DNA of 64,000 bases from Geminicoccaceae bacterium (GTDB lineage: Bacteria > Pseudomonadota > Alphaproteobacteria > Geminicoccales > Geminicoccaceae), in NCBI GenBank assembly GCA_025999455.1, contig AP024683.1, positions 69,501-133,500 of the forward strand. The letters are read 5' to 3'. Both the position numbers and the translations under genes were made by a program. Shown piece after piece: positions 26,384 through 31,873 of the stretch (positions are counted from its first letter, which is position 1; every line of letters starts with the position of its first letter). The notes beneath the pieces are model-generated. The model had not been told where the DNA came from. It saw nothing but the letters and a program-made list of their open reading frames with translations, and did no database searches.

Positions 26384-28384
26384 TCAAGCCGCCCGGCGGT
26401 GGGCGGCGAGGGCCAGTTCGACGATGTCGGCCATGATCCGGTCGACCCGGTAGTCCTTGGGTGTGTAGACGCGCGCCACCCCGGCGGCGAGCAGCCTTCG
26501 CTCGTCCTCGGGCGGGACGATGCCGCCCACCACGACCGGCACCTCGCCGATGCCGAGCTTGCGCATCCGCTCGAGCACCTCGCGCACGAGCGGCTCGTGC
26601 GAGCCCGAGAGGATCGAGAGGCCCACAAGGTGGACCCCCTCCTCGAGGGCGGTCGCCGCGATCCGGGCAGGGGTCAGGCGGATCCCGTCGTAGACCACCT
26701 CCATGCCGCAATCGCGGGCGGCGACCGCGATCTGCTCGGCACCGTTCGAATGGCCGTCGAGGCCCGGCTTGCCGACCAGGATCTTGAGCCGGCGGCCGAG
26801 CCGCCGGCTCGCCTCCTCGACCCGGGCGCGGACCGGCGCCAAGAGATCGCTGCCGGTGCCGGCGACCGCCCCGACACCGGTGGGTGCCCGGTATTCGCCG
26901 AACACCTCGCGTAACAGCTGAGCCCACTCGCCGGTCGTGACACCGGCCCGGGCGCAGTCGATCGACGGCGGCACGATGTTGCGGCCTTCCTGCGCCGCCT
27001 CGCGCAAGGCGGCCAACGCGGTTGCCACGGCCTCGCCGTCGCGGGCGGCGCGATGGGCCTGCAATCGCGCGATCTGTTCGGCTTCGGCGGCCGGGTCGAC
27101 GGCGAGGAAGCCGCCCCCGCCGGCGGTCAAAGGCGAGGGCTCGCTCTCGGTGAAACAGTTCACGCCCACCACCGGCAGCTCACCCGAGGCGATCGCCGCG
27201 ACACGTTTCGTGTTGCTCTCGACCAGCCGCGCCTTCATGTAGCCGCTCTCGACGGCGGCCATGGCACCGCCCATCGCCTCGACGCGGCCGAGCTCCTCGA
27301 GCGCCGCCTCCTCGAGCTCGCGGACTTTGGCTTCGATCACCGGCGAGCCGTCGAACAGGTCGTCGAACTCCAACAGATCGGTCTCGTAGGCCAAAATCTG
27401 TTGAAGCCGCAGCGACCATTGTTGGTCCCAGGGCCGGGGCAGGCCCAACGCCTCGTTCCAGGCCGGCAGCTGCAGGGCCCGGCAGCGGGCCCGCTTGGAA
27501 AGGGTTACACCGAGGGCTTCGAGAAGGATCCGATAGACGTTGTTCTCGGGCTGTTGTTCGGTGAGGCCCAGCGAATTCACCTGCACGCCGTAGCGGAAGC
27601 GCCGGAGCTCGGGGTCCTCGACACCGTAGCGCTCGCGGGTGATGCGGTCCCAGAGCCGGGTGAAGGCGCGCATCTTGCAGAGTTCGGTGACGAAGCGGAT
27701 GCCGGCGTTCACGAAGAACGAGATCCGGCCCACGACCTCGGGCAGCTCGTCGGGCCGCACCTGGCCCGAGGCCTTGACCGCGTCCAACACGCAGACCGCG
27801 GTCGCGAGGGCGTAGGCGATCTCCTGGACCGGGGTCGCCCCCGCCTCCTGCAAGTGGTAGGAACAGACGTTGATGGGGTTCCAGCGCGGCATCTCCCGCG
27901 CCGTGAAGGTGACGAGATCGGTCGTGAGCTTGAGCGACGGCCCGGGCGGGAAGATGTAGGTCCCGCGGGCGAGATATTCTTTGACGATGTCGTTCTGGGT
28001 GGTGCCGGCGAGCTTCTTGCGGTCCGCCCCCTGGCGTTCGGCGACCGCGACGTAGAGCGCCAACAGCCAGGCCGCGGTCGCGTTGATCGTCATCGAGGTG
28101 TTCATCTTCTCGAGGGGAATACCCTCGAACAACACCTCCATGTCGGCGATCGAGCCGATCGGCACGCCGACCTTGCCGACCTCGCCCTTGGCCAAGGGGT
28201 GATCGGCGTCGTAGCCGGTCTGGGTCGGCAGGTCGAAGGCCACCGACAGCCCGGTCTGGCCCTTGGCGAGATTTTTGCGGAACAAGGCGTTGGAGGCGGC
28301 GGCCGAGCTGTGGCCCGCGTAAGTCCGGAACAGCCAGGGCCGATCCTTGCGCGGTCCGCGTGGCTCGTGCGCCTCGTTCGCCAT
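26384..28384 (-). CDS. ecm: Ethylmalonyl-CoA mutase (B12-dependent)
   Basis: A 666-residue single-chain mutase: the substrate barrel (about 10-500) with [18 protein letters not shown] and [14 protein letters not shown], and the C-terminal cobalamin domain with the base-off motif DGHSNG in [13 protein letters not shown]. The sequence matches MeaA/ethylmalonyl-CoA mutase more closely than methylmalonyl-CoA mutase. It converts (2R)-ethylmalonyl-CoA to methylsuccinyl-CoA in the ethylmalonyl-CoA pathway of acetyl-CoA assimilation. Its role is confirmed by the divergent ccr and nearby mcd genes. The ATG at 28384 starts the conserved protein; an earlier in-frame ATG adds 23 unrelated residues. Confidence 0.93.
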
Positions 28385-28443
28385 GGCCCGTTCCCCGATC
28401 GTCCGCGGTCGCCCGACGGGCGCCGGCACGGTTTCGATCCCTC

Positions 28444-28514
28444 GCCTTAACACCCTTGCTGCGCCGCGTCAAACACGATTCGTCGTTGACGGCCATCACC
28501 TCGCGTGTCACGCT
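28444..28514. promoter_or_regulatory. Divergent ecm/ccr control region with CGTCAA-N13-TTGACG dyad
   Basis: Two TTGACG hexamers point away from each other: 28486-28491 toward ccr and, on the minus strand, 28472-28467 toward ecm. Together they form a perfect 6-bp dyad spaced by 13 bases. Each is placed as a -35 element. The candidate -10 sites 17 bases on (CACGCT toward ccr, TAAGGC toward ecm) are weak. The symmetry could let one regulator control both genes. This is inference from sequence layout only. Confidence 0.4.
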
Positions 28515-28541
28515 GCACCGCAAGGCCAGCGGGGAACGGTC

Positions 28542-30128
28542 ATGAGCAGGCAGAACGTCGAACGGATCATCGCCAAGTTCGGCTCGCAGCAGCGGGTCGC
28601 CGAGCTCCTCGGCATCTGGCAGACGGCGATCTCGGGCTGGGTGCGGCGCGGTGCGATCCCGGCCCGCCGGCAAGAGGAGCTCTTGGCGATCGCCCGCCGC
28701 GAGGGCATCCCGCTCGAGCCTTCGGACTTCTTCGCCGAGACGGTCGCGGCGAACGGCACGACGGGCGGCCCCGGCCCGGCCGCCGCGGGCTCGTCGGCCC
28801 CCGCTCCCGCCCCGGCCACACCGCAAACGGGCGGCGCCCAGGTGATCCCGATCCACCGTGAGGGCGCCCCCATGGTCAATCGGATCGCGACCAAAGACCT
28901 CTACGAGGTGGGCGAGATCCCGCCGCTCGGGCACGTGCCGCGCAACATGTGGGCCTGGGTCGTGCGCAAGGAGCGGCACGGCGAGCCGATCACGGCGATG
29001 CAGCAGGAGGTCGTGCCGACCCACGAGATCGGCGAGGACGAGTGCCTCGTCATGGTGATGGCGAGCGGGGTCAACTACAACGCGGTCTGGGCGGCGCTCG
29101 GCATCCCGATCTCGCCCTTGGACATCCACAAACAACCCTTCCACATCGCCGGCTCGGACGCCGCCGGCATCGTCTGGGCGGTGGGCTCGAAGGTGAAGCG
29201 CTGGAAGGTCGGCGACGAGGTCGTCGTGCACTGCAACCAGGACGACGGCGACGACGAGGAGTGCAACGGCGGCGATCCGATGCTCTCGCCCTCGCAGCGG
29301 ATCTGGGGGTTCGACACGGCGGACGGCGGTCTCGCCCAGTTCTGCCGGGTCCAGTCCCGCCAGCTCATGCCGCGGCCCAAGCACCTCACCTGGGAGGAAT
29401 CGGGCTGCTACGTGCTCACCCTCGCGACCGCCTACCGGATGCTGTTCGGTCATCCGCCCCACACCTTGAAGCCCGGCGACAACGTGCTCGTCTGGGGTGC
29501 CGCGGGCGGCGTCGGCTCGATGGCGATCCAGATCATCGCCGCCTCGGGGGCGAACGCGATCGGCGTGATCTCGGACGAGGACAAGCGCGACTTCGTCCTC
29601 TCGCTCGGTGCCAAGGCGGTCATCAACCGGCGACAGTTCGATTGCTGGGGCGAGATGCCCGATCCCATGGACAAGGAGGCCTACGGCCGCTGGCTCGCCG
29701 AGGTCCGCAAGTTCGGCAAGGCGATCTGGGACGTCACCGGCAAAGGCAACGACGTCGATCTCGTCATCGAACATCCCGGGGCCGCGACCTTCCCGGTCTC
29801 GGCCTTCGTCGTCAAACGCGGCGGGATGGTCGTGATCTGCGGCGGCACGAGCGGCTACAAGCTCACCCTCGACGCCCGCTACCTCTGGCAACGCCAGAAG
29901 CGGATGCAGGGCAGCCACTTCGCCAATCTGAAGCAGGCCATGGCGGCCAACCGGTTCGTCATCAACCGGCAGGTCGACCCCTGCATGAGCGAGGTCTTCC
30001 CCTGGGCCGACATTCCGCGCGCCCACATGAAGATGTGGAAGAATCAGCACAAGCCCGGCAACATGGCGGTCCTCGTCCAGGCCCGCCGGCCGGGCATGCG
30101 CACCTTCGAAGAAGCGATCGAAGAGTGA
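28542..30128 (+). CDS. ccr: HTH domain fused to crotonyl-CoA carboxylase/reductase
   Basis: A 528-codon uninterrupted frame. Residues 1-66 form a Cro/carph-isopro-like helix-turn-helix (NVERIIAKFGSQQRVAELLG, then a WVRRGAIPARRQ recognition-helix region and PSDFFAE). Residues ~67-110 are a Gly/Ala/Pro linker. From residue 111 (ATG 28872) follows an essentially complete Ccr: KDLYEVGEIPPLGHVP, HCNQDDGDDEECNGGDP, WGAAGGVGS nucleotide-binding loop, EHPGAATFPVS. Ccr reductively carboxylates crotonyl-CoA to ethylmalonyl-CoA with NADPH and CO2. A GAGGG site 7 bases before ATG 28872 could also give an unfused 418-residue enzyme. Known Ccr proteins are about 430 residues and, to my knowledge, lack this domain. 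Confidence 0.88.
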   Translation: MSRQNVERIIAKFGSQQRVAELLGIWQTAISGWVRRGAIPARRQEELLAIARREGIPLEPSDFFAETVAANGTTGGPGPAAAGSSAPAPAPATPQTGGAQVIPIHREGAPMVNRIATKDLYEVGEIPPLGHVPRNMWAWVVRKERHGEPITAMQQEVVPTHEIGEDECLVMVMASGVNYNAVWAALGIPISPLDIHKQPFHIAGSDAAGIVWAVGSKVKRWKVGDEVVVHCNQDDGDDEECNGGDPMLSPSQRIWGFDTADGGLAQFCRVQSRQLMPRPKHLTWEESGCYVLTLATAYRMLFGHPPHTLKPGDNVLVWGAAGGVGSMAIQIIAASGANAIGVISDEDKRDFVLSLGAKAVINRRQFDCWGEMPDPMDKEAYGRWLAEVRKFGKAIWDVTGKGNDVDLVIEHPGAATFPVSAFVVKRGGMVVICGGTSGYKLTLDARYLWQRQKRMQGSHFANLKQAMAANRFVINRQVDPCMSEVFPWADIPRAHMKMWKNQHKPGNMAVLVQARRPGMRTFEEAIEE

Positions 30129-30208: not shown

Positions 30209-31873
30209 ATGGCAACGGCCGTCGCCGAGCTCCGCCGCCCCGAGCCCGACCTGCTGGCCGCCTGTCGAACCGCGCTCGCCGCCGCGGCGCAGCTCCGCGA
30301 CCGCGCCCGCGACCGACTCGCCGCCCGTCTCGCGCCGGGCGGCCGGCTCGACGCCGAGCTCCTCGAGCGCGAGCAGCACGCCGCGCACGGCCTCGCCTGG
30401 CTCGAGGTCCACGTCCGCGCCCTCGAAGCCCTCGCGGACTGGGCTGAGCGGCTGCGCGCGGCGGACCGGCTCGGCGAGCGCGAACGGCTCACCCTCGCCT
30501 GGGGTTTCTCCGAATATCTCGCCCGGCTGTCGGGCGGCTGGCCGATGGCGCAGGGCGAGCTCGTGCGGCCGCACGAGCTCGGCCTCGCCGAGGCCGATCT
30601 CCGGCCGCTGCGCGCCGCCGAGCTCGACACGCTCCTGCGCGAGGGCGGCAGGCCCGAGGCGCGACGTCGGCTCGCCGAGCTCCTGGCGCCGGGCGAGCTC
30701 GGCGATCCGGGCATCCTCGAGGACGAGCTCGAGCTCGTCCGCCACCAGTTCCGCCGCTTCGCCGAGGAGCGGATCCGGCCCTTCGCCCACCGCTGGCACC
30801 TCGAGGATGCGCTCGTCCCCGACGAGGTCCTGCGCGAGCTCGCCGAGCTCGGCGTGTTCGGCCTCACGGTCCCCGAAGCGCACGGCGGGCTCGGCATGAA
30901 CAAGCTCGCCATGTGCCTCGTGACCGAGGAGCTCTCGCGCGGCTACATCGGCGTGGGTTCCCTGCCGACCCGCAACGAGATCGCGGGCGAACTCGTGGCC
31001 TCGGCCGGCACGCCCGAACAGAAAGCGCGATTCCTGCCGCGCCTCGCCTCGGGCGAGCTCGTGCCGACCGCGGTCTTCACCGAGCCCAACGTGGGCTCCG
31101 ACCTCGCCAACCTCGAAACCCGCGCCGTGCTCGAGGACGGGGTCTGGCGCGTGACCGGCCAGAAGACCTGGATCACGCACGCCGCCCGAGCGGATTTCAT
31201 GACCATCCTCTGCCGGACCCGGCCCGAGCGCGGCCATCGCGGACTCTCGATCCTGTTGGCCGAGAAGCCGCGCGGCACGGATGCGAACCCGTTCCCGGTC
31301 GAGGGGCTCACGGGCGGCGAGATCCCGGTCCTGGGCTATCGCGGGATGAAGGAATACACGCTCTCCTTCGACCGCTTCCCCGTCCCGGCCGAGAACCTCT
31401 TGGGCGGGGTCGAGGGTCAGGGCTTCAAGCAGCTCATGGCGACCTTCGAGAGTGCTCGGATCCAGACCGCCGCGCGGGCGGTCGGTGTCGCGGTCGCGGC
31501 GATCGAGGAGGGGCTCGCCTACGCCCGCGAGCGCAAGCAGTTCGGCAAGCCGCTCCTCGCCTTCCCGCGGGTCCACCAGAAGCTCGCCTGGGCGGCGGTC
31601 GAGACCCAGCTCGCCCGCCAGCTCACCTTCTTCGCGGCGCGCGCCAAGGACGAGGGCCGGCGCTGCGACCTGGAGGCCGGGCTCGCCAAGCTCCTCGCCG
31701 CCCAGGTCGCCTGGATGGCGGCCGACCAGGCCCTCCAGGTCCACGGCGGCAACGGCTACGCGCTCGAATATCCGATCTCGCGGATCCTCTGCGACGCCCG
31801 GATCCTCAACATCTTCGAGGGTGCCGCCGAGATCCAGGCGCAGGTCGTGGCGCGCCGCCTGCTCGAGGGCTGA
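30209..31873 (+). CDS. mcd: Methylsuccinyl-CoA dehydrogenase
   Basis: A 554-residue acyl-CoA dehydrogenase with the extra N-terminal helical domain (about 1-160) that distinguishes Mcd from ordinary ~380-residue family members. FAD/substrate motifs include TVPEAHGGLGMNKLAM, VFTEPNVGSDLANLETRA, TGQKTWITHAARADF and the C-terminal QVHGGNGYALEYPISRI. It oxidises (2S)-methylsuccinyl-CoA to mesaconyl-CoA, the step after Ecm in the ethylmalonyl-CoA pathway. It follows ccr on the same strand after a hairpin. The ATG at 30209 has an AGGA ribosome site 6 bases upstream. Confidence 0.93.
   Translation: MATAVAELRRPEPDLLAACRTALAAAAQLRDRARDRLAARLAPGGRLDAELLEREQHAAHGLAWLEVHVRALEALADWAERLRAADRLGERERLTLAWGFSEYLARLSGGWPMAQGELVRPHELGLAEADLRPLRAAELDTLLREGGRPEARRRLAELLAPGELGDPGILEDELELVRHQFRRFAEERIRPFAHRWHLEDALVPDEVLRELAELGVFGLTVPEAHGGLGMNKLAMCLVTEELSRGYIGVGSLPTRNEIAGELVASAGTPEQKARFLPRLASGELVPTAVFTEPNVGSDLANLETRAVLEDGVWRVTGQKTWITHAARADFMTILCRTRPERGHRGLSILLAEKPRGTDANPFPVEGLTGGEIPVLGYRGMKEYTLSFDRFPVPAENLLGGVEGQGFKQLMATFESARIQTAARAVGVAVAAIEEGLAYARERKQFGKPLLAFPRVHQKLAWAAVETQLARQLTFFAARAKDEGRRCDLEAGLAKLLAAQVAWMAADQALQVHGGNGYALEYPISRILCDARILNIFEGAAEIQAQVVARRLLEG

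Follow-up and report, generated by a model that had tools for sequence, protein, structure and literature searches.

The locus examined here raises the question of whether an enzyme of carbon assimilation can carry a DNA-binding domain and use it to control its own gene. In the 64,000-nucleotide stretch of DNA analysed (the window), a single open frame of 528 codons on the plus strand (28542-30128) leads from a helix-turn-helix (HTH) head through to crotonyl-CoA carboxylase/reductase (Ccr). Both ends are recognised by NCBIfam models: carph-isopro (NF046037) matches residues 6-58 with 58.4 bits, passing its domain cut-off of 38, and the crotonyl-CoA carboxylase/reductase model TIGR01751 matches residues 131-522 with 604.6 bits, passing its equivalog cut-off of 378.55. 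The open frame and these matches confirm the reading of the first-pass annotation, which had described an HTH head fused to a complete Ccr in one 528-codon frame. The features of the locus are collected in Table 1; for the acyl-CoA dehydrogenase gene at 30209-31873, no equivalog model scored over its cut-off.

Table 1. Features of the HTH-Ccr locus, in positions of the window.
Feature	Positions	Strand	Basis or remark
HTH-Ccr fused gene (head, linker and Ccr)	28542..30128	+	528 aa and stop
Cro-like HTH head, residues 1-64	28542..28733	+	carph-isopro match at residues 6-58
Hypervariable Pro/Ala/Gly linker of HTH-Ccr, residues 65-117	28734..28892	+	24% mean pairwise identity (67-110)
Ccr part of HTH-Ccr, residues 118-528	28893..30125	+	NCBIfam match, alignment
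Divergent gene, methylmalonyl-CoA-mutase type, probably ecm (ethylmalonyl-CoA mutase)	26384..28384	-	substrate from neighbourhood
Gene after ccr, acyl-CoA dehydrogenase, 554 aa, probably mcd (methylsuccinyl-CoA dehydrogenase)	30209..31873	+	neighbourhood, length
Degenerate 17-bp repeat GTGTTGACNNCCAACAC, 3 mismatches, candidate operator	28483..28499	+	sole hit in 64 kb at 3 or fewer mismatches
TTGAC, -35-like box of the putative ccr promoter, within the 17-bp repeat	28486..28490	+	TTGAC position in headed loci
AACAC half-site, offset -93	28449..28453	+	word search
AACAC half-site, offset -70	28472..28476	+	word search
Internal ATG in linker	28872..28874	+	GAGG 8 bases before

The enzyme part encoded in the window keeps the GVNYN and GSHFAN stretches and has WGFDT in place of the WGYET stretch; we take these three stretches to hold the CO2-pocket residues of carboxylating Ccr, the WGFDT/WGYET one presumably adjoining the pocket. 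Two local variants were observed among the headed proteins described below. WGFDT.DGGLAQF (29310-29333, residues 257-264) is shared by the window, G004 and G001 (L002, L004), the other 19 of the 22 having WGYET.DG..AQF, and the headed Ccr of Arboricoccus pini (L021, genome G018, on the same contig as L079) shows GVDQN against GVNYN in the others.

The Geminicoccales sample comprised 31 genomes, those of the family being the same 31 as those of the order. At a threshold of E<=1e-60, Ccr is present in 26 of them, and the remaining five, among them both genomes of genus g16, gave no Ccr match at that threshold. The same domain order, sought in other genomes, recurs in 22 Geminicoccales genomes, window included, with head and enzyme in one stop-free frame; a stop codon between HTH and Ccr in relatives, set beforehand as the sign of a false fusion, occurs in none of these full-length genes. 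In G024 the head and the N-terminal part of Ccr are followed by the contig end, and in G012, G013 and G028 ccr is cut by contig ends within the gene, so that wherever the 5' end of a Geminicoccales ccr is readable the head is present (23 of 23). Carriers with names include Arboricoccus pini and several Geminicoccaceae metagenome-assembled genomes.

Outside the order, Ccr appears without this head. A class-wide sample of 385 genomes contains 118 with a Ccr match at E<=1e-120, and only the four Geminicoccales among them align through the head from residue 1; for the other 114, the query start is at least residue 57 among the matches listed. Of these 114, 23 also have a carph-isopro match (E<=1e-8), which in every case is either on a different contig or separated by more than 0.8 Mb. 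An HMM scan of the 400 bp upstream of 40 headless ccr loci gave no head, and headlessness of the remaining ccr loci was taken from the carph-isopro genome search, in which up to 16 candidates were scored per genome.

Among the headed proteins (n = 22), the head (residues 5-60) averages 84% pairwise identity, the enzyme 83% and the linker (67-110) 24%; invariant columns number 30 of 56, 189 of 412 and 0 of 44, respectively. Linker length ranges from 46 to 65 residues. A conserved head and a conserved enzyme joined by a drifting linker are what one would expect of two functional domains, each folded and connected by a flexible tether. The HTH-Ccr fusion is real and selectively kept.

The head modelled alone with AF2 reaches a pLDDT of 92.5 and shows helices at residues 3-13, 16-23, 27-36 and 41-54; a model of full-length HTH-Ccr (21 sequences) had a pLDDT of 46.6, and nothing is inferred from it. 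By Foldseek, the solved structures nearest to the head belong to phage Cro proteins, N15 Cro bound to operator DNA among them, with E values of 0.05-0.24 against the Xfaso 1 and N15 crystal chains, weak in themselves, and TM scores of 0.59-0.66. Xfaso 1 Cro is also closest by sequence (E 1.2e-4), and the modelled head has the Cro fold. In Pfam, P22_Cro (PF14549) scored 29.2 bits on the head, below its gathering score of 30.2, making the head fold-related and not a member, and the YdaS model scored 25.7 bits, just below its cut-off of 30. The recognition-helix residues 26-29 (W Q T A) and 31-33 (S G W) are invariant across 21 sequences. Since carph-isopro is already catalogued (its name, at a guess, from carbamoyl-phosphate and isopropylmalate), the head as such is not new.

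A DNA-binding head would call for sites at the genes it serves, and the first-pass annotation had proposed that the enzyme controls its own regulon, naming the ecm-ccr intergenic region (28385-28541). That region holds an operator-like motif conserved in headed loci, which lends weight to the proposal. In the 180 bp before the 22 headed ccr starts, AACAC/GTGTT is found 65 times against 9.0 expected (200 dinucleotide shuffles, sd 2.6, highest 16), a count inflated by the relatedness of the headed loci; its density there is 16.4 per kb, and within and downstream of the genes it is 1.0 per kb (66 in 63,370 bp). The word was initially picked by eye, and a later unbiased ranking of all 5- and 6-mers placed AACAC first among 5-mers, with occurrences in 22 of 22 loci, or 12 of 12 when each genus contributes one locus. 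The half-site consensus is YAACACYT. Measured over 400 bp, AACAC amounts to 8.3 per kb at headed ccr and 1.5 per kb in the 40 headless loci, while TGCAA, which we take to be an ScfR-type motif, follows the reverse trend (1.8 per kb in 180 bp at headed ccr against 8.0 per kb in 250 bp at headless ccr). These opposite trends suggest a change of regulator along with the head. The association of head and motif is thus observed, and since both are clade-wide it lies mostly between clades. On their own account, the headless ccr promoters (L175-L214), which come from across the alphaproteobacteria, are rich in TGCAA/GTTGCA, with 80 TGCAA against 34.9 expected and 33 of 40 loci containing it.

In some loci, two half-sites are joined. 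G020 has a perfect 17-bp inverted repeat, GTGTTGACGGCCAACAC (of the form GTGTTG-N5-CAACAC), and the copies in G006, G011, G017 and G026, located at -56 to -59, differ by a single mismatch. When up to three mismatches are allowed, the repeat is found in 9 of 22 headed loci, the corresponding figures being 7 among 880 shuffles and 1 among 120 slices taken from headless loci; in the other 13 headed loci it is poor (4-6 mismatches) and half-sites stand alone. TTGAC occurs at -75 to -40 in 16 of the 22, and the best repeats cover this box. Chance alone would give 0.45 matches per 64 kb at up to three mismatches, so the repeat in the window would not convince from this genome alone. Searching GTGTTGACNNCCAACAC at up to one mismatch through the 31 genomes gave 17 rows, corresponding to 16 places in 12 genomes, none of them in the window's own genome, against 4 matches for the reversed 17-mer; five of the 16 places (six rows) are ccr-ecm intergenic regions, and the other 11 appear to lie within open frames. 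When all inverted repeats with 5-bp arms are counted at headed ccr, 14 are found at N7 against 7.0 expected, and N0 (16) and N13 (20) stand out as additional peaks, a spacing preference weaker than that for CarA reported below. In 21 of the 22 headed loci ecm is divergent from ccr; the exception is Arboricoccus pini (L021), where no divergent ecm was seen and one AACAC occurs in 260 bp. Operator-like sites at the enzyme's own gene, as a self-regulating enzyme should have, are accordingly present across headed loci and weak in the window alone.

The same head also occurs on other proteins, which the first-pass annotation could not see: heads are widespread on other enzymes, and Ccr as a partner was found in Geminicoccales only. 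Carph-isopro scores over its cut-off in 72 of the 385 class genomes. In 52 of the 72 loci read, the head precedes a coiled-coil protein with a membrane anchor, assigned by eye and exclusion; all six tested gave a Pfam Mitofilin match, and these proteins are hence called Mic60-like. The other partners are CarA, NnrDE, SerA, PyrB, HisZ and ArgB. Individual head-bearing loci comprise HisZ (L150, L151, L158, L154), PyrB (L152), ArgB (L155, L156), SerA (L130) and NnrDE (L109, L136), which extends the head to enzymes of amino-acid, pyrimidine and NAD(P)HX metabolism, headed HisZ occurring in two separate families. Run on the proteins, NCBIfam placed the head over cut-off in the CarA, both NnrDE, SerA, PyrB and L151 HisZ tested, and found no head at E<=1e-8 in the L155 ArgB and L154 HisZ proteins; the genome search had scored the heads of these last two over cut-off, that of ArgB only with frame neighbours included.

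CarA provides the clearest case. Headed carA is found throughout the family of G056, which we guess to be Acetobacteraceae (L042, L127, L135, L139, L215-L244, L265-L267, L269-L272, L274-L284). With heads called by HMM, which places the head behind a longer linker in seven loci of this family, the 15-bp repeat GGGAA-N5-TTCCC lies within 320 bp of 43 of 48 headed carA and of 0 of 31 headless carA, the latter comprising 29 loci from other families together with L273 and with L268, which is indeterminate because it ends at a contig end. The spacing is strict: 62 sites have a spacing of 5, and the remaining spacings between 2 and 10 yield 1 site in total. The repeats cluster near -45 and -85 from the head, often as two about 40 bp apart. 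Among the five headed carA without the repeat is L267, which has 76 bp upstream only; the upstream stretch is shorter than 200 bp for seven headed carA loci. A preferred spacing of 5-bp-arm inverted repeats is clear for CarA, and not for the ten single loci or the Mic60-like genes.

Upstream of headed Mic60-like genes, whose start codons were assigned mechanically, CGTACG occurs 37 times against 2.9 expected (sd 1.65), in 26 of 52 stretches, at 3.2 per kb compared with 0.05 per kb in coding sequence. The headed Mic60-like loci, which include L031-L034, L088-L108, L110-L112, L119-L126, L128 and L129, belong to many alphaproteobacteria. Single palindromes, without statistics and partly read by eye, precede HisZ (L150), PyrB, both ArgB and NnrDE (L109), and no such upstream repeat was found at L136, L130 and L151, the last having one elsewhere only. 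The top enriched promoter word thus differs among the three head groups (Ccr, CarA and Mic60-like) and is specific to each, even if at carA and Mic60-like genes head and repeat are both nearly clade-wide and their association lies mostly between clades. The idea of self-regulation is strengthened by this sequence evidence from three head groups. The carph-isopro HTH may well be a portable autoregulation module, joined repeatedly in alphaproteobacteria to the N-termini of unrelated enzymes (Ccr, CarA, PyrB, ArgB, HisZ, SerA, NnrDE) and to Mic60-like proteins, and paired with a matching repeat at their own promoters, often of 6-N5-6 form, so that the state of an enzyme would set its own expression through no separate regulator.

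For the locus under study, catalytic and predicted DNA-binding domains stand in one chain, as in trigger enzymes, and HTH-Ccr is quite probably bifunctional, a crotonyl-CoA carboxylase/reductase that would also regulate its own locus (ccr and the divergent ecm) through its head. The Cro-like head, flexibly linked to an oligomeric enzyme core, would itself bind the YAACAC half-sites of the ecm-ccr intergenic region, which in some species are joined as the 17-bp repeat. Solved Ccr enzymes are oligomers; with flexible linkers, an oligomer would present several heads together, which fits half-sites of varied spacing and orientation. Bound HTH-Ccr would cover the TTGAC box and most likely repress ccr, the next gene (probably mcd) and probably ecm. 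The position of the repeat over the -35-like TTGAC box, which is usual for repressors, points to repression. What is sensed is probably a ligand of the enzyme, and repression would be relieved once the core engages substrate or cofactor. In this way, one of the products of ecm, ccr and the following gene would control all three.

The sense of control might be the opposite, with the head binding the same sites and activating ccr and ecm, or acting on one promoter only. Half-sites also lie upstream of the TTGAC box (-93 and -70 in the window), but the best repeats include the box itself, in the position typical of a repressor, and this reading is unlikely. It is less likely again that the head has lost its DNA binding and has a role in assembly, localisation or contact with a partner, a separate Geminicoccales regulator then being the user of the YAACAC sites. 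Such a role would suit the occurrence of the same head on Mic60-like proteins of the membrane, for which a regulatory function is not obvious; it sits poorly with the invariant recognition helix and with the group-specific promoter words of three head groups, which a shared non-DNA role does not predict.

The first-pass annotation had further raised the option of two products, the fused regulator-enzyme and a plain Ccr started inside the linker. The internal ATG at 28872 with its GAGG does exist, in-frame ATGs are present in 18 of 22 headed linkers (in 9 of 22 preceded, at 5-12 bases, by at least 4 bases that match a ribosome-binding site), and several linkers resemble an old ccr start (MNATADNVVSL..). 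Nonetheless, the site is not conserved over the 22 loci: the position of the ATG differs between genera, and the linkers of G004, G011, G025 and G018 contain no in-frame ATG, the headed Ccr of G004 being 94% identical to the window protein. Two products are therefore not supported as a conserved feature and improbable as a general explanation, though conceivable in single species. Finally, an artefact of sequencing, assembly or gene calling has a negligible chance, because the frame is open in 22 genomes and the linker drifts yet stays in frame.

To our knowledge, few enzymes double as their own transcription factor, and most of the known cases are isolated. Across an entire order, the enzyme described here, which is the key one of the ethylmalonyl-CoA pathway, carries a Cro-type head, together with a matching candidate operator between pathway genes, and comparable pairs of head and repeat occur at carA and Mic60-like genes. 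Such pairs could provide a testable code relating recognition helix to repeat, a possible answer to how acetyl-CoA assimilation is controlled in Geminicoccales, as well as naturally occurring instances of a module for enzymes sensing the state they are in. In the open-access literature searched, which leaves subscription journals mostly outside, no headed Ccr was found by title, no paper names carph-isopro, and neither a headed carbamoyl phosphate synthase (Acetobacter) nor a headed mitofilin (alphaproteobacteria) was encountered; for ethylmalonyl-CoA in Geminicoccaceae, only a Defluviicoccus genome paper appeared, by title.

Among known systems, ordinary alphaproteobacterial Ccr (TIGR01751; solved example 4gi2) aligns with the whole enzyme part at 62-75% identity for the closer matches, and is headless, unlike HTH-Ccr. 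Carph-isopro proteins (NF046037) share the head domain, their partners being CarA, PyrB, ArgB, HisZ, SerA, NnrDE and Mic60-like proteins, with Ccr as partner in Geminicoccales only. Phage Cro proteins (Xfaso 1, N15, P22) are similar to the head in sequence and fold, but are free small dimers, whereas the head of HTH-Ccr is one domain of an enzyme chain. PutA, BirA and NadR are self-regulating enzymes with a catalytic and a DNA-binding domain; HTH-Ccr shares this architecture and has a candidate operator at its own gene, yet differs from them in enzyme and in head type, and its DNA binding is predicted. RamB/ScfR-type regulators have the same task as that proposed for HTH-Ccr, the control of acetyl-CoA assimilation. 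In Paracoccus denitrificans, RamB is reported to bind CoA esters of the pathway as well as two boxes close to the promoter that it targets (PMC10370305); unlike HTH-Ccr, it is a separate protein and controls the glyoxylate cycle.
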